NCBI RefSeq assembly: GCF_020514095.1
Contig: NZ_VTKY01000002.1
Span: 62,001-126,000 of the forward strand
Length of the DNA stretch: 64,000 nt
Source: Synechococcus sp. MU1643
GTDB taxonomy: Bacteria > Cyanobacteriota > Cyanobacteriia > PCC-6307 > Cyanobiaceae
Direction: 5' to 3'
Position 1 is the first letter of the stretch. Each line of letters begins with the position of its first letter. Below are positions 17,994 through 27,789 of this stretch, piece after piece. Made by a program: the position numbers and the translations under genes. The notes beneath the pieces were generated by a model, which was not told the DNA's origin, ran no database searches, and saw nothing but the letters and a program-made list of their open reading frames with translations.

Positions 17994-20462
17994 ATGGCTG
18001 AGGAGCGCGTTCAACCGATCGCCCTGCATCAGGAGATGCAGCGCTCCTACCTCGAATACGCGATGAGCGTGATCGTGGGTCGGGCGTTGCCCGATGCCCG
18101 AGATGGTCTCAAGCCTGTACAGCGACGCATCCTCTACGCGATGCAAGAACTGGGTCTTACCCCAGACCGTCCTTACCGCAAGTGCGCGAGGGTCGTCGGT
18201 GACGTGCTGGGCAAATACCACCCTCACGGGGATCAAGCGGTCTATGACGCCCTAGTGCGGCTTGTTCAGACCTTCTCCAGCCGTCATCCCCTGCTAGACG
18301 GCCACGGCAATTTCGGCTCGGTGGACGACGACCCACCGGCGGCGATGCGGTACACCGAAACCCGCCTCGCGCCGATCTCCCATCAGGCGATGCTTGAGGA
18401 GATCGGTGAAGACACCGTTGATTTTGCGCCGAACTTCGATGGATCCCAACAGGAACCCACCGTTCTTCCGGCCCAGCTTCCCTTCCTGCTGCTGAACGGT
18501 TGCTCCGGCATCGCCGTCGGCATGGCCACCAGCATTCCCCCGCACAATCTGGGAGAGGTGGTGGATGGCCTGATCGCCTTGATCCACAAGCCGGAGCTGA
18601 GTGACGACAAACTTCTGGAACTGGTCCCGGGGCCCGACTTCCCCACAGGTGGTGAAGTACTGATCAGCTCAGGCCTGCGAGACACCTATCTGCACGGCCG
18701 CGGCAGCATCCCGATGCGCGGGGTCGCCCACACCGAAGAAGTGCAACTCGGCAAGGGGCGCCATAAACGCAATGCCGTTGTGGTCACGGAACTGCCCTAC
18801 CAGCTCAGCAAGGCCGGCTGGATTGAAAAACTGGCTGAATCTGTCAACGACGGAAAAATCGGCGGAATCGCCGACATCCGGGACGAAAGCGACCGCGAAG
18901 GCATGCGCGTGGTCGTGGAGCTGCGCCGCGATGCGGATCCGGAGAAGGTGCTGAAGGATCTGCAGCGTCGAACAGCGCTGCAAAGCAACTTCGGATCGAT
19001 CTTGCTGGCCCTGGTGGATGGACACCCCCAGCAGCTGTCTCTACGCCAACTGCTCCAGACCTTCCTCGATTTCAGGGAATTGACCCTGATCCGGCGCACC
19101 AGTCATGCCCTGCGCAAAACCGAAGACCGGCTTGAGGTTGTGGAAGGACTGATCACAGCCCTGAACAATCTTCAGGCCGTGATCGCCATGATTCAGGAAG
19201 CGAATGACGCCGCCTCAGCCCGCGCCAGCCTGATGGTGCGACTCGACCTCAGCGAACGGCAGGCGGATGCTGTGTTGGCCATGCCCCTGAGGCGTCTGAC
19301 TGGACTGGAACAGGAAAGCCTGCGCCAGGAGCTGGACGAGCTTCAAGCGGAACGTCAACGACTCAAGTTGCTCTTGGACAACCGGGATCAACTGCTGGAC
19401 GCGATGGTGACAGAGCTCAAAGCATTGAAAAAACGCTTCAGCACCCCGCGTCGAACCCGCCTGGTGGAGGGCGGTGATGCCCTGATAGCCGAACGGGCAG
19501 CCAGCCAACGCCCGAACACAGAACTGCTGCGTCAGCAGGCCCTGGCCGCATTGCCCGGAGATGGTCGGGTGCTGATCCAGGCCGATGGACAAGTGAAAAT
19601 CATCACCCCTCAGGTGCTGGGCCGGCTGCACCTCAATGATCCTTGCCCCATTGGTGATGCACCATCTCCAGCGCAGGTGATCTTGCCAATCGAACCACCA
19701 CCGCGGCTGCTGGCCGTGAGTGCAAGCGGACGCATTGCCCAAGTGCGCTGGGAGTTTGCAGGACAACAGCCAGGCCCAATCGAGCGTTTCCTTCCCACCG
19801 GCCTCGACGGAGACACGATCGTTTCGCTGCTGTCGTTGCCCAGCCAAAACATCGATGCGTTGAGTCTGGGCTTGCTGAGCAGCGATGGTCGTTTCAAGCG
19901 ACTTCCCCTCAGCGAAGTGGTGGACCTGTCCGGTCGGGCTACCAGCGTTCTCAAATTGAAAGAGGGCGTAGAGCTCAATAGTGCAGTTATCTGTCGCGAC
20001 CAAGGAACACTGATGCTGATGAGCGACATCGGTCGCCTGCTGCGACTGCAAGTCACTGAGGATTCGCTTCCGTTGATGGGTCGATTGGCGCAGGGACCCA
20101 TGACCATGCGATTGCTCCCCGAGGAACAGATCGTCGGAGCCATCTGCACGGAACAGACACCACTAATGCTGCTCAGCCAACGGGGATTGGTCGCGAGAAT
20201 CGACTGTTCAGGCCTGCGCTACAACCAACGGGGCGATCTCGGCAGCATGGCCATACAGGTTGATGCTGAATCTGATCGCTTGGTCGGTATCAGCGCTGGA
20301 ACAGGACTTGTCGGTGTGCGCACCAGCAAAGACCGTCACGGACGCTTGGATCCGGACGACATCAACATCTCAAACCCCGGAGAGAAACTGACAGAACAGA
20401 CGTCTCTTCAGGACGGAGAAACCATCGTTAAAGTGATCAACGCCATTCAACCGAATCCCTAA
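17994..20462 (+). CDS. gyrA: Type II topoisomerase subunit A (GyrA/ParC family)
   Basis: This is the DNA-cleaving subunit of gyrase or topoisomerase IV, 822 residues. The catalytic tyrosine is Y120 in [12 protein letters not shown]; the helix [16 protein letters not shown] holds the quinolone-determining positions. The breakage-reunion core, coiled coil ([20 protein letters not shown]) and a six-blade C-terminal beta-propeller region are present. I see no canonical GyrA box (QRRGGKG); the closest is YNQRGDLGS near residue 745, so negative supercoiling activity is uncertain and a ParC-like role is possible. It starts with ATG after GGAGAG, 45 bases behind the TPR gene, and is convergent with purF (7-base gap). 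Confidence 0.9.
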
Positions 20463-20469
20463 CCCACGA

Positions 20470-21927
20470 TCAAGAGCTGCAATTCTGCTCTAACCATTGG
20501 AAATAATCTTCGTCGATTCCACCGGTCACATAGTGGCCATCAAAACAAGACATCTCGAGATCTTTGATCTCAGTTTTCTCAACAATGCTTTCTAACAAGT
20601 TCTCAACGGTCTGATAAACAACATAATCAGCACCGAGAACATCTGAAATCTCATCACTGGTTCGTCCGTGGGCAAGTAGTTCCGCCCGAGTCGGCATGTT
20701 GATCCCATAAACATTTGGATAGCGAACTGGCGGGGCAGCAGACGTAAAGGTCACCTGGTTGGCACCAGCGCTGCGTGCCATCTGAACAATCTCGCGAGAA
20801 GTTGTACCACGAACAATTGAATCGTCGACGATCAAGACATTCTTGCCGGCAAATTCAGTGCCGAGAGCGTTGAGTTTTTGCCGCACGGATTTCTTTCGCT
20901 CCGCTTGACCCGGCATGATAAATGTGCGGCCGACATAGCGGTTCTTGTAAAAACCTTCGCGATACTCAATGCCCAATTGCTTGGCCACCTGCATCGCCGA
21001 AGGCCTTGCCGAATCAGGAATCGGCATCACAACATCGATATCACCAGCCGGTAACGTTGCGGCAATAGTTTGAGCCAAACGATCACCCATTCGCAGCCGC
21101 GACTCATAAACCGAAATACCGTTCATGAGGGAATCTGGCCGCGCCAAATACACGTACTCAAAAGCACAGGGAATCAACCGAGGAGACTCGGCACACTGAC
21201 GCTGGTGCAGGTTCAAATCAACGTCAATAAACACCGCCTCGCCAGGGTCAACATCGCGAACGATCTCGTAGCCGCTGTTTTCAATCACCAACGATTCACT
21301 GGCGACAATCCACTCCTCACGACCCTGTTCAGACAATCGCCTGCCGAGAATCAAAGGCCGAATTCCGTAGGGATCCCGGAAGGCCAGCATTCCGTGGCCC
21401 GCAATCAAAGCGATCGCTGCATAGGACCCCTGAACGCGGTGATGCAGTGACACCACCGCATCAAACAACTGATCCGGTGTCAAATCACCGCCTGTGAGTT
21501 GAGATTGAATCTCCGTGGCCAACACATTGACCAGCATCTCCGTATCGCTGCTCGAATTGGTATGACGACGATCAATCTTGAAAAGATCCTGCTCAAGCTG
21601 ATGGGTGTTGGTGAGATTGCCGTTATGCACAAAAGTGATGCCATAGGGGGCATTCACATAGAACGGCTGAACTTCCTCTTCTGACGCAGCAGCGCCACGG
21701 GTGGCATAGCGAACGTGACCGATCCCGGCATTCCCCAACAGCTTTCGCATATCTCGGGTGCGAAAAGCTTCACGCACACGTCCCCTTTGTTTATGCACAT
21801 GGAAGGTGTGATTGTCCATCGTGACAATCCCTGCTGAGTCCTGACCACGGTGCTGAAGCAGAAGAAGATTGTCGTAAATCTGTTGGTTGACTGAGTCAAC
21901 ACAGAACATTCCGATAATGCCGCACAT
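20470..21927 (-). CDS. purF: Amidophosphoribosyltransferase
   Basis: PurF converts PRPP and glutamine to phosphoribosylamine, the committed step of purine synthesis. The nucleophile is Cys2 exposed after removal of Met (MCGIIGMFC). The glutaminase domain shows LLLQHRGQDSAGI, GHVRYATRG and FVHNGNLTN, and the PRPP loop is VLIVDDSIVRGTTSREIV. Length, 485 residues, is normal. It lies 61 bases after purL on the same strand, with a perfect hairpin between them. Confidence 0.96.
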   Translation of the reverse strand: MCGIIGMFCVDSVNQQIYDNLLLLQHRGQDSAGIVTMDNHTFHVHKQRGRVREAFRTRDMRKLLGNAGIGHVRYATRGAAASEEEVQPFYVNAPYGITFVHNGNLTNTHQLEQDLFKIDRRHTNSSSDTEMLVNVLATEIQSQLTGGDLTPDQLFDAVVSLHHRVQGSYAAIALIAGHGMLAFRDPYGIRPLILGRRLSEQGREEWIVASESLVIENSGYEIVRDVDPGEAVFIDVDLNLHQRQCAESPRLIPCAFEYVYLARPDSLMNGISVYESRLRMGDRLAQTIAATLPAGDIDVVMPIPDSARPSAMQVAKQLGIEYREGFYKNRYVGRTFIMPGQAERKKSVRQKLNALGTEFAGKNVLIVDDSIVRGTTSREIVQMARSAGANQVTFTSAAPPVRYPNVYGINMPTRAELLAHGRTSDEISDVLGADYVVYQTVENLLESIVEKTEIKDLEMSCFDGHYVTGGIDEDYFQWLEQNCSS

Positions 21928-21967
21928 GATGAATCCGAAGTCAGCTAGATAAGGAAGAGAAACGACC

Positions 21968-21984
21968 GTCAGGCAACGCCTGAC
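21968..21984 (-). terminator. Hairpin between purL and purF
   Basis: A perfect 7-base-pair inverted repeat, GTCAGGC / GCCTGAC with a three-base loop, lies four bases beyond the purL stop and 41 bases before the purF ATG. On the minus strand it is followed by GGTCGTTTCTC rather than a run of U, so it is at best a weak terminator. It may stabilise the purL 3' end or set the purL:purF ratio. Confidence 0.4.
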
Positions 21985-21988
21985 TCAA

Positions 21989-24295
21989 TCACTCCGAATG
22001 CATCCGTCGGGACAACGCATCACGGAAAACAGCAGCACAGCGTTGCACCTCAAGATCGAGCTGAACAGCAGATTCGGATCGAATCACCAATCGAGCCTGC
22101 GCCGTAACACTGCCCAGCGGGGTAACGCAGAGCGCTGGATTGGATCCGATCAACTGCTCCCATGCAGGGAGACGAGCTGCCTTCACCGACACAATCACCC
22201 GGCTGCCGCCTTCGGCGAACAGCACCCGCTCTAGGCGCGCCGATCCTATAGAAAGCGTCACGTTGATGCCCAGATCAGAGGCGATGCAGGCTTCAGCCAA
22301 CGCCACTGCCAAGCCGCCATCACTGCAGTCGTGGGCGGAGGCCAACAGACCTTGAGCAATGGCCTCACGCACCAGACGCCCCACCGCTGATTCGACGGCA
22401 AGATCGGGCTTTGGCGGTCGTCCGGCCAAGGAGCCAAGGGTCTGCTGCTGATAGGCACTGCCCGCCAAACCAAGGCTGGGGTTGGCACCGTCCTCGGGAG
22501 GAACACCGATGAGGAAGATCGCATCGCCGGGCTGTTGCCAGGCCAAGCCAGTCACACGGCTGATGTCATCCACACTGCCAACCATGCCGATTACCGGCGT
22601 GGGGTGGATCGGTTGCATGGTGCCGTCGTCCTGTTTGGTCTCGTTGTAGAGCGAGACATTGCCGCCAGTAACGGGTGTGTTGAGGGCGCGGCAGGCATCG
22701 GAGATCCCTCGACAGGCCATGGCCAGCTGCCAGAACCCCTTGGGTGTTTCCGGTGACGGGAAATTGAGGTTGTCGGTCACCGCCAAGGGCTCCGCCCCCA
22801 CGCAACTCAGGTTGCGTGCCGCTTCTGCGACGGCCGCCTGAGCGCCGCGTTCGGGATCCAGGGCAACCCAACGGTTGGGGCAATCCACCGTGGCGGCAAC
22901 ACCACGATTGGATGCGGCCATGGATCCATCGCCTTGCTGGGGTCTCAGACGCACCACAGCAGCATCAGCGGCACCGGATGAGACCACCGTGTTGGCCAGC
23001 ACCTGCTGGTCGTACTGACGGTGAACCCACTGCTTGCTTGCAATGGTGGGGTCATCTAGAAGCTGAAGCAGGGCTGCCGTGGCATCGGTCAGCTCCGGAA
23101 GTTCCTGATCGGTCCAACTCCAAAGAGCCTGAAGGTCTGCCGGGGGCTCTTGCAACAGAGCATGTTTTTCGATCGGGGTGTCATCGGCAAGAGCCGTGGC
23201 CGGCACCTCAGCGGCAACGGCACCGTGATGCAACACCCGAACAATCGGTTCCTGGAGCACCTTGCCCACAACCGCCGCCTGCAATCCCCAGCGACGGAAC
23301 CGCTGCATCAAAGCGTCCTCACGCCCGGCCTTCACCACGAACAACATCCGTTCCTGGGACTCGGATAACAGGAACTCATAAGCCGTCATCCCCGCTTCAC
23401 GGGCCGGAACACGATCGAGATCCAGTTCCACCCCTAAGCCCCCTTTGGCGGCCATTTCCGAACAGCTACAGGTCAGACCAGCGGCGCCCATGTCCTGCGC
23501 TGCCACCACATCACCACTGGCGAAGGCTTCAAGACAGGCTTCGATCAGCCCTTTCTCCAGAAAGGGATCCCCCACCTGAACGGCGGGGCGATCATCCAAG
23601 GAATCAGCACTGAGCTCAGCGCTGGCAAAGCTGGCTCCCCCCATGCCATCCCGACCGGTGGTGCTTCCCACATACACCACGGGATTGCCAACGCCGATCG
23701 CGCCAGATTTGACGATCTCCTCGGTCTCCATCAATCCGAGGGCCATGGCATTCACCAGCGGATTGCCGGAATAGGAGGGATCAAAGGCCACCTCACCGCC
23801 CACCGTCGGCACCCCAACGCAGTTGCCGTAATGAGCAATGCCGGCCACAACGCCTTCCATCAGGCCAACGTTGGCGGGATCCTCAAGGGGACCGAAGCGC
23901 AGGGCGTTCAGCAGCGCGATCGGACGGGCGCCCATCGTGAAGATGTCACGCAGGATGCCGCCCACCCCTGTTGCGGCCCCCTGAAAGGGTTCGACGGCGG
24001 AAGGGTGGTTGTGGCTTTCGATCTTGAAAGCCAACCGGTGACCCTCTCCGAGATCGACCACACCGGCGTTTTCACCAGGGCCCACCAGGATGCGTGGTCC
24101 CTCAGTGGGGAAGCCACTCAGCAAGGGCCGGGAATTGCGATAACAGCAGTGTTCGGACCACATCACACCGAACATGCCCAGCTCAGCTCGATTCGGCTCG
24201 CGACCAAGCCGCCTACAGATCTCATCCCAGTCACTGGACTTGAGCCCTTCCTGCTTCAGGGCTGCAGCTATCTCGTACGCAGGGGAGGAAACCAC
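21989..24295 (-). CDS. purL: Phosphoribosylformylglycinamidine synthase subunit PurL
   Basis: The small-type PurL (about 768 residues) turns FGAR into FGAM with ATP and glutamine-derived ammonia, working with separate PurQ and PurS. Visible motifs are [64 protein letters not shown] and the second-half [15 protein letters not shown]. The frame is open to 24613, but the upstream part overlaps the PRC-barrel gene and has no family likeness. GTG 24295, preceded by GGAGG at a somewhat long spacing, starts 40 bases after that gene's stop and gives normal length. Confidence 0.95.
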
Positions 24296-25089: not shown

Positions 25090-26247
25090 TCAGGAACGAA
25101 TCTGAACGGGCATCACCAAATAGGTGAAAGCTTCAGGCACTTCATCGGAGCGGAGCACGGCCGGCGTGGTGGGCGCGTTGCAGTGCAGAACAATCCGATC
25201 AGAGCCCATAGCTTTCAGGCCATCCAGCAGATAGCGAACGTTGAAGGCAATCTGCATGGCATCACCCTCCAGGTTGGCGGGAAGCGACTCAGAGCCACTG
25301 CCCACATCCTGCGCATCTGCACTGATCTGGACAACACCGTCCTCAGGCTGACTGCTGAATTTCACAACGTTGTTGTGTTGATCAGCCAGCACAGCAATCC
25401 GCTCCAAAGCAGCGATCAGAGCGCGACGCTCCATTCCAAAGGTACGGGTGAAACCATCAGGGATCAGCTGGCCGTAGTTGGGATAGGTGCCTTCCAGGGT
25501 GCGGCTGGTAACCATCTGGTCGGCCGCAAGAAACACCACCTGACCACGATCACAGAACAAACTGACGGGTTCATCGGACCGCCAGGACGCCATCAGCCGC
25601 TCCACCTCGCGCAGCGAGCGCGATGGGAGCGTCACCGCGAAACCCTCGTCGTCTACAGCGTCGACAACAGCCGCATCCTGCAGAGCATCATCAACATTGA
25701 GCACGGCAAGACGGTGACCATCGGTGGCAGCCGCTTCCAGAGCCCGCTGGTTGAACTTGAGATGCACACCGGTGAGCAGTTGCTTCGCTTCGTCAGCGCT
25801 GCTGGCAAACAGGGTGCCTTTGAGCGCCTGCACCAACCGTTCAGGTTGCAGTTTGAGCGTCATGCCGCTTTCCACCATCGGAAGGTCGGGATAGTCATCG
25901 GCGCTCATGCCGCGCATCTGATAGCTGCCGCTGAGGCAGGTGAGCTGAACCTGCTCACCGGAATCATCAACGGCGAGTGTGATCGGAGAGTCGCTGGATA
26001 AGCGGGAAACGATCTCTCCCAGCAACCGGGCTGGAAGTGTGATGGCACCGCTGGTTTCAACGCTGGCGGCGAGAGAGGTCTGAATTCCGAGGCTTAAGTC
26101 AAAACCAGTGAGGCTGAGGCGGTTGCTGCCAGCATCGGCGGTGAGCAACACATTCGCCAAAACCGGATGGGTGGGGCGTGTGGCGACTGCACGGCTCACC
26201 AACTGCAGAGCGCCATTCAGTTCGGACTGAGAACAGACCACCTTCAT
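25090..26247 (-). CDS. dnaN: DNA polymerase III beta subunit (sliding clamp)
   Basis: DnaN is the ring that tethers the replicative polymerase to DNA. The 385-residue protein has three repeats of the clamp fold: an N-terminal MKVVCSQSELNGALQLVSRA, a middle TDGHRLAVLNVDD and a C-terminal part ending YLVMPVQIRS, the MP-x-R ending typical of DnaN. It reads leftward from the dnaN-thrC gap. In cyanobacteria dnaN often lies beside oriC, which fits the DnaA-box-like sites upstream. It is followed by the PRC-barrel gene with one base between. Confidence 0.96.
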   Translation of the reverse strand: MKVVCSQSELNGALQLVSRAVATRPTHPVLANVLLTADAGSNRLSLTGFDLSLGIQTSLAASVETSGAITLPARLLGEIVSRLSSDSPITLAVDDSGEQVQLTCLSGSYQMRGMSADDYPDLPMVESGMTLKLQPERLVQALKGTLFASSADEAKQLLTGVHLKFNQRALEAAATDGHRLAVLNVDDALQDAAVVDAVDDEGFAVTLPSRSLREVERLMASWRSDEPVSLFCDRGQVVFLAADQMVTSRTLEGTYPNYGQLIPDGFTRTFGMERRALIAALERIAVLADQHNNVVKFSSQPEDGVVQISADAQDVGSGSESLPANLEGDAMQIAFNVRYLLDGLKAMGSDRIVLHCNAPTTPAVLRSDEVPEAFTYLVMPVQIRS

Positions 26248-26339
26248 CGTCCTGACGACCTGATCGCGCTGAGGTGTCCCACGGTTTCACAGGCTGAGGG
26301 GAAGTGCAATGGCCAGCGCATTGGGAGCCTCTGTTCGGC

Positions 26340-26605
26340 TGTTTGGTTCTTATGGATTTAAAAAATAAAAAACAAATACAGCCGTCGTAGGGCTTGGGGA
26401 AAAGGGGGAAAGGCACCCAAAACCCAGCTTTCACACGAACTCTCGATGAACCAAAGCTGAGGAGAATTTTTCACGGGATGGGGAACGAGACTTCGTTTTC
26501 CACCGCTTCACAGGAGGGTGGAAAACTCATGGGGTTAACGGGTGGATTGTTTTAGGTTGTTTTCCACAGCGTGTTGGGATGGTTTTAGGGCGTTTTCCGT
26601 AGCCG
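26340..26605. other. Candidate replication origin (oriC)
   Basis: This is most of the 435-base gap between dnaN and thrC, the longest gene-free stretch here. It holds an AT-rich tract at about 26347-26380 (ATTTAAAAAATAAAAAACAA), which could be the unwinding element. A cluster of DnaA-box-like sites on both strands follows at 26467-26601. Origins beside dnaN are known in Synechococcus elongatus, where boxes read TTTTCCACA. The rest of the gap, 26248-26339 and 26606-26635, holds the dnaN upstream region and no ORF I would defend. Confidence 0.7.
26467..26601. repeat. DnaA-box-like site cluster
   Basis: Three sites share the ten bases GTTTTCCACM. They are 26495-26504 (GTTTTCCACC, plus), 26517-26526 (the same on the minus strand) and 26559-26568 (GTTTTCCACA, plus; contains the exact cyanobacterial box TTTTCCACA). 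Weaker relatives are GTTTTCCGTA at 26592-26601 and TTTTTCACG at 26467-26475. All are in non-coding sequence. Confidence 0.7.
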
Positions 26606-26635
26606 CTTTGTCGGTTGGTTTTGCCTTATGGCCAC

Positions 26636-26658
26636 AAAAAAGCCCCCGTTAGGGGGCT
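26636..26658 (-). terminator. Intrinsic terminator of thrC
   Basis: On the minus strand the sequence reads AGCCCCC-TAAC-GGGGGCT followed by a run of T (six A on the plus strand, 26636-26641). The stem is 7 base pairs, nearly all G-C, with a four-base loop. It begins 24 bases beyond the thrC stop and stops leftward transcription before the candidate origin. Confidence 0.9.
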
Positions 26659-26682
26659 GAAGCGCGTCGATGTAAGGCGGTG

Positions 26683-27789
26683 TCAGAAGCCCATCACACT
26701 GGCGACGGTGCTTAGATCGGGATTGAGGTCGGTGTGGAACGAGGCGTCGTTGTTGCTGATGGCGCAGTCGGGATCCTTGAGGCCGTTGCCGGTCAGAACG
26801 CATACAACTGTGGCGCCGGCTGGCACTTCATCTTTGCGCTTGAGCAGGCCTGCCACAGAGGCAGCGCTAGCGGGTTCGCAGAAGATTCCCTCTTGGCCGC
26901 CCAGAAGCTTGTAGGCCGCGATGATCTCCGCATCGGTGACATCCAGGAACGCACCGTCGCTGGCTTCGCGTGCTGCCAGGGCTTTGGCTCGGTTCACCGG
27001 GTTGCCAATGCGAATGGCGGTGGCGATGGTTTCGGGGTCCGTCACCGTGGTGTCGTTCACCAGTGGGGCTGATCCGCTGGCCTGGAATCCCATCATTCGG
27101 GGAAGACTGCGGCTCCGGCCGGCCTGCTGATATTCCTGAAAACCCATCCAATAGGCGGTGATATTCCCTGCGTTGCCCATGGGAATGCACAGCCAGTCGG
27201 GTGCCTCTCCGAGGGCATCCACGATTTCGAAGGCTGCCGTCTTCTGGCCCTGCAGCCGGTAGGGATTCACCGAGTTCACCAGGGTGACGGGATACTTCTC
27301 TGCCGCTTCCCGAACGATGTCGAGGGCGCGGTCGAAGTTGCCGCGGATCGCCAAGACCTCAGCTCCGTACACAAGAGCTTGAGCCAGTTTTCCCTGGGCG
27401 ACATAGCCGTCAGGGATCAAGACGAAGGCTCGCATCCCTCCCCGTCTGGCATAGGCCGCTGCAGCAGCACTGGTGTTGCCCGTGCTGGCACAAATCACCG
27501 CTTCACAACCGGCTTCCTTCGCTTTGCTGATGGCCATGGTCATGCCCCGGTCCTTGAAGGACCCTGTGGGGTTCAGGCCGTCGTATTTCACGAACACCTT
27601 CACGCCCTTACCGATCTGTTCCGCAACCGATGGCACAGGGATCAGAGGGGTGGCGCCTTCGCGCAGGCTGATCACCGGGGTCGCATCGCTGACGGGAAGC
27701 CAGCTGCGATAGGCCTCGATCAGTCCAGGCCAGTCCTGCATCACAGGGGTGGCAGTGAAACGCCGACGGAGGTTCTGAAACAGGGACAC
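26683..27789 (-). CDS. thrC: Threonine synthase
   Basis: ThrC is the PLP enzyme converting O-phosphohomoserine to threonine. The PLP lysine lies in [20 protein letters not shown], and the phosphate-binding loop appears in [12 protein letters not shown]-like form ([15 protein letters not shown]). [20 protein letters not shown] is also characteristic. The length of 368 residues fits the short cyanobacterial/Bacillus class. It starts with GTG at 27789 and ends with a strong terminator facing the candidate origin. Confidence 0.94.

Follow-up and report, generated by a model that had tools for sequence, protein, structure and literature searches.

The dnaN–thrC gap as the probable chromosomal origin of a marine Synechococcus, with a conserved BUS-like element

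The intergenic region and its DnaA boxes

The window, a 64-kb stretch of the genome of Synechococcus sp. MU1643, contains a gap between dnaN and thrC (Table 1). The identities of the two genes, proposed in the initial annotation, are borne out by family profiles. A strong intrinsic terminator is placed such that, judged by its sequence, it would shield the origin from thrC transcription. The conserved block just upstream of dnaN contains a TGTGAAA sequence that is invariant in 30 of 30 genus-level gaps; the block is a candidate dnaN promoter or leader, or a DnaA site. A protein-coding function for the gap was rejected, the small overlapping reading frames at 26099-26434 and 26615-26914 having no family match. 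When the window was searched against Rfam, no RNA family reached the gathering threshold.

Table 1. Features of the dnaN–thrC region (window coordinates).
Feature	Position	Strand	Evidence or remark
dnaN, DNA polymerase III sliding clamp	25090..26247	-	TIGR00663
Intergenic gap, dnaN start to thrC stop	26248..26682 (435 bp)	.	Proposed oriC; ORF list, flanking-gene profiles, skew sign change
Conserved block CTGTGAAACCGTGGG just upstream of dnaN	26278..26292	-	Genus-level alignment
AT-rich tract TTTGTTTTTTATTTTTTAAAT	26356..26376	-	Probable unwinding element
Trio-like stretch CTA CGA CGG CTG	26379..26390	-	CTACTACTA in most other families
GC-rich 4-nt linker AGCC	26391..26394	-	Equal length in genus sequences and aligned distant modules
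Inner DnaA-box position TTTTCCCCA	26395..26403	-	Predicted; most conserved stretch of the gap, 0.91-0.93
Outer DnaA-box position CTTTCCCCC	26404..26412	-	Predicted; TTTTCCACA in other families
Weaker box-like site TTTTTCACG	26467..26475	+	CTGTGAAAAATTCTCC in close relatives
DnaA box GTTTTCCACC	26495..26504	+	GTTTTCCACM match; predicted
DnaA box GTTTTCCACC	26517..26526	-	GTTTTCCACM match; predicted; retained chiefly in close relatives
DnaA box GTTTTCCACA	26559..26568	+	GTTTTCCACM match; predicted; exact cyanobacterial consensus
Weaker box-like site GTTTTCCGTA	26592..26601	+	Inside conserved block 26591-26615, conservation 0.87-0.88
Intrinsic terminator 3′ of thrC	26641..26658	-	Strong
thrC, threonine synthase	26683..27789	-	TIGR00260

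The sequence GTTTTCCACM occurs exactly three times in the window, and all three matches lie inside the gap, spanning 74 bases. They have the two-plus, one-minus arrangement originally described, and one holds the exact consensus TTTTCCACA, at 26560. The mean expectation from shuffled sequences is 0.19, and three matches were reached in none of 100 shuffles. When one mismatch to TTTTCCACA is allowed there are 11 hits in the window against 11.55 by chance, so that there is no window-wide enrichment; four of these hits sit inside 175 bp, and four per 250 bp were reached in one of 300 dinucleotide shuffles. In the 2.07-Mb genome as a whole TTTTCCACM is found 35 times, against 32 for the reversed control, and the dnaN–thrC gap contains its sole triple cluster. 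The clustering of boxes beyond chance is a feature of a DnaA-dependent oriC.

The weaker flanking sites are present as well (TTTTCCCCA, GTTTTCCGTA and TTTTTCACG), as is the AT-rich tract, which lies about 120-140 bases from the first GTTTTCCACM site. The unit GTTTTAGG-3 nt-GTTTTCC occurs twice, at 26549-26568 and 26582-26601, its ends coinciding with the boxes at 26559 and 26592. The gene for the initiator is present, with a single Bac_DnaA match in the genome (contig C8, E 1.4e-67), and the DnaA recognition motif GGKDHTTV is intact.

A conserved core module

The minus strand between 26412 and 26356 reads in order CTTTCCCCC TTTTCCCCA AGCC CTA CGA CGG CTG, followed by the AT-rich tract. The complement of the four triplets is 3′-GAT GCT GCC GAC-5′. 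The A+T content is 0.92 across the 24 nt past the fourth triplet, placing a probable AT-rich unwinding element, as expected of oriC, beside the boxes. The core is single-copy in the host genome, even with up to three mismatches allowed.

We aligned the gap with its counterparts in a set of 30 genus-level sequences, for which the relatives came from one genus search, and made a wider comparison with evenly drawn family and class genomes; a separate scan of named relatives covered marine Synechococcus, Prochlorococcus and Cyanobium. The best-conserved stretch of the gap is 26407-26377, with a mean identity of 0.89-0.93 that exceeds that of the three GTTTTCCACM boxes. Its CCCC/trio core is recognisable in 30 of 30 genus-level sequences, and the GTGGAA core of the box at 26495-26504 (the core at 26496) is present in nearly all of them. 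Near relatives retain the divergent pair as well as the exact TTTTCCACA box, the latter being absent from part of the genus; the position of the box at 26559 is occupied by TGTGGAAAA in close relatives and by GGGGAAA in several others. The elements are thus found in the orthologous gap, as the origin proposal had required. Its emphasis on the GTTTTCCACM boxes needs adjustment: these boxes are real, but they evolve faster than the flanking site that had been regarded as weaker, together with the trio-like and AT-rich stretch. From its sequence, this conserved element of 35-60 bases adjoining the GTTTTCCACM boxes is the likeliest site of DNA opening.

The arrangement extends well beyond the genus. 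In eight other lineages we find TTTTCCACA-nTTTCCACA-4 nt-CTACTACTA-AT-rich in the same register with small variations, located in the gap or, in some, further upstream; the in-register equivalent in other cyanobacterial families is TTTTCCACA-nTTTCCACA-GGCC-CTACTACTA. A class-wide pattern search recovered it, mostly as a single copy, in 169 of 242 genomes; the reversed control gave hardly any hits. We also constructed a 31-nt matrix from the modules of seven distant families, none of them that of the host. This scores the site in the window at 21.9 bits, compared with 8.4 for the next site there and a best of 7.6 elsewhere in the host genome (400 kb sampled). In all 30 genus sequences the best site begins ~160-170 bp before dnaN. 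In the wider family the score exceeds that of the reversed control at 79 of 79 loci, where the trio precedes dnaN by 125-180 bp. Conservation in the orthologous gap, expected of a DnaA-dependent oriC, is therefore seen in both the 30 genus sequences and the 79 family loci.

The distance to dnaN is not fixed everywhere. In two genomes (G042 and G044) as much as about 640 bp separates the core from dnaN. In a third (G052) it is found at C1:1869-1889, near the dnaA match at C1:382-864 and not upstream of dnaN; therefore the origin and dnaN have separated in that genome. The signature of tandem boxes, 4-nt linker, CTACTACTA and AT tract across cyanobacterial families could serve as an origin finder, including for origins away from dnaN.

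Strand composition and the assignment of the origin

Skew was sampled in 20-kb stretches of genomes. Within the window (2-kb bins) GC skew is negative in all bins as far as 26 kb; of the 19 later bins, 18 are positive. AT skew switches sign at the gap in the opposite sense. The cumulative minimum falls at 25,879, offset by 0.5-0.7 kb toward the dnaN side of the boxes, which is well within noise. Gene direction alone does not account for the switch at the gap, since dnaN and thrC share the minus strand. The flanks on host contig C2 continue the pattern of the window, and on contig C1 the opposite switch is passed gradually, at about 450-530 kb. The profile of a complete relative whose numbering starts at dnaN (G003; 20 samples round the chromosome) is V-shaped, with the opposite switch roughly halfway, at ~1.2 of 2.29 Mb. 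Because numbering from dnaN is a convention, we also sampled relatives numbered elsewhere, taking 40 kb on each side of dnaN, and all five (G021, G026, G020, G023 and G015) switch at the gap. Thus the skew comparison, a check proposed with the original reading and standing in for a replication profile, locates a reversal of sign at the gap for the window, the complete relative and five further genomes; such a switch in strand composition is characteristic of a DnaA-dependent oriC.

Two other departures in composition were seen in the host genome. G+C drops to 0.52 at 20001-22000 of the window, compared with ~0.61 around it. At the end of contig C1 (G000:C1:677001-697000, L085) the skew flips back, with GC +0.039 and AT -0.087; the AT skew is +0.117 at 636-656 kb, before this abrupt flip, which may reflect an inversion or misassembly near the terminus.

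Taken together, the box cluster, the skew reversal, the presence of dnaA and the conservation of the core in a fixed register support the original reading of the locus, and the sequence evidence makes it very probable that the dnaN–thrC gap is the single DnaA-dependent oriC of this marine Synechococcus. The alternative that survives best accepts the gap as oriC, with the GTTTTCCACM boxes as its working core and the CCCC/CTAC block as something unrelated such as an untranslated leader. In the host genome the block indeed has degraded trios, and its boxes (TTTTCCCCA) are off consensus. We nevertheless consider this improbable: the block of distant families, in the same register and with the same 4-nt linker, has perfect or near-perfect TTTTCCACA and CTACTACTA, and the block is more conserved than the three GTTTTCCACM boxes.

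Still less probable is that the boxes are mainly a DnaA-controlled dnaN promoter region, with the true origin elsewhere nearby. DnaA does control genes in other bacteria, every element lies upstream of dnaN, and the TGTGAAAC..GTGG sequence immediately before dnaN is conserved. Yet the core does not stay next to dnaN in the manner of a promoter, as seen from its positions up to about 640 bp away in G042 and G044 and near dnaA in G052. A search of the dnaN–thrC gap for a sigma-70-type promoter found none, and the skew of the sampled genomes reverses only at the gap, besides the opposite pole and one contig end. The same sites may also regulate dnaN. That the gap is a relic in a chromosome with several DnaA-independent origins, as in Synechocystis PCC 6803, is very remote: DnaA dependence has been lost several times in cyanobacteria (PMC7198777), but DnaA-independent lineages show irregular skew, whereas the host has a regular, two-armed skew, a dnaA gene and a strongly conserved core.

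Other box clusters in the genome are not origins, because the skew keeps one sign there; an exact pair at G000:C1:148396-148426 and the sites at C1:347497/347777 were rejected on this basis. The former (L040 997-1027; L150) comprises TGTGGAAAA-13 nt-TGTGGAAAA, 22 bp apart in the same direction, and is flanked by DUF2811 and CbiX genes. About ten members of the genus have the pair at this position, together with a conserved CACAGGTTGACCGTCAC block on its upstream side. Possible roles are those of a promoter under DnaA control or a site that titrates DnaA.

How might the dnaN–thrC origin be opened? From the established biochemistry of DnaA and of the basal unwinding system (BUS) we infer DnaA binding, a direction of filament growth and unwinding as follows. 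DnaA, whose gene lies elsewhere in the genome, would have high affinity for the GTTTTCCACM boxes (26495-26568) and would also bind the tandem CCCC-type boxes (26395-26412). It would then spread from the inner box over the 4-nt linker onto one strand of CTA-CGA-CGG-CTG (26390-26379), opening the AT-rich tract (26376-26356). The helicase would load at the opened tract, from which two forks would depart in opposite directions. The origin of the host genome would in this way be narrowed to a few dozen bases.

Comparison with BUS and with other cyanobacterial origins

The core module has the layout of a BUS, which comprises a DnaA box, a short spacer and 3′-GAT-5′ trinucleotides on the strand stretched by DnaA (PMC6669920; PMC8287927). 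Described for B. subtilis (PMC6669920), the system has been demonstrated in vitro in several species, S. elongatus among them (PMC8287927). The box should lie within 16 bp of the trios (PMC8287927), and here TTTTCCCCA is followed by a 4-nt linker and CTA. The box-proximal trio has the commonest form, 3′-GAT-5′, and CTA occupies this position in 28 of 30 genus sequences, the window included. The published search rule requires at least three tandem 3′-NAN-5′ trios. In the register CTA CGA CGG CTG the second and third (3′-GCT-5′ and 3′-GCC-5′) lack the middle A, and thus the module falls outside the strict BUS definition; under a loose rule, enough trios are found only when the register is shifted into the T-rich tract. 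CGA is the second trio in 17 of 30 genus sequences and in many Cyanobium-type loci.

Judged on sequence, this is a derived BUS-like form inside an ordinary DnaA-type oriC, most likely descended from BUS. Unwinding through the trios is less certain than the assignment of the origin, because CGA and CGG lack the middle base of the motif. We give about even credence to the more specific proposal that the DnaA unwinding module of cyanobacteria has, in marine Synechococcus and Cyanobium, a derived form conserved within the lineage, with CCCC in place of CCAC in its inner box and the middle base lost from the second trio and often from the third, CTA becoming CGA, while Prochlorococcus loci retain CTACTACTA. 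The change in the trios may track the high G+C of marine Synechococcus and Cyanobium genomes. We looked for a change in DnaA matching the altered boxes and trios, and found the GGKDHTTV motif of domain IV and the FTNDLI stretch unchanged, so that no explanation emerged from this comparison. If the proposal is correct and the module still opens the origin, then DnaA recognises trios less strictly than the current motif states. In their degraded trios these lineages offer a natural experiment on the extent of the motif that DnaA requires.

Origins adjacent to dnaN with TTTTCCACA boxes are well known in cyanobacteria (PMC4674748, PMC3480399, PMC7198777). For marine picocyanobacterial genomes (Synechococcus and Prochlorococcus), base 1 is set 174 bp before dnaN as the approximate origin (PMC7522525). 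In the window this corresponds to about 26421, beside the core at 26412-26356. The locus is therefore an expected one, since authors already number genomes from this point. The passage concerned gives the point without an element map, so that ours adds detail to a recognised locus. The only additions apparent to us are this map and the degraded trios, and a bulk list in the supplement of PMC8287927 may already hold related predictions.

The closest comparison is with S. elongatus, which has a mapped, DnaA-bound oriC adjoining dnaN (PMC7198777) and whose DnaA unwinds its cognate BUS in vitro (PMC8287927). Like the oriC of S. elongatus PCC 7942, the host locus is adjacent to dnaN and distant from dnaA, has boxes of the cyanobacterial consensus and lies at a skew switch (PMC3480399, PMC7198777). 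The S. elongatus origin contains 11 boxes, most of them perfect (PMC3480399, PMC4674748), whereas the host has three near-perfect boxes plus the CCCC-type core boxes. In a genome whose gap resembles the S. elongatus oriC (G045) the layout of the core is the same as in the host, with CTATTACTA in place of CTA-CGA-CGG. Compared with the BUS of Bacillus subtilis, the host shares the tandem boxes, the short linker, the box-proximal 3′-GAT-5′ trio and the AT-rich tract on the far side; it differs in its second and third trios and in the CCCC-type sequence of its boxes.
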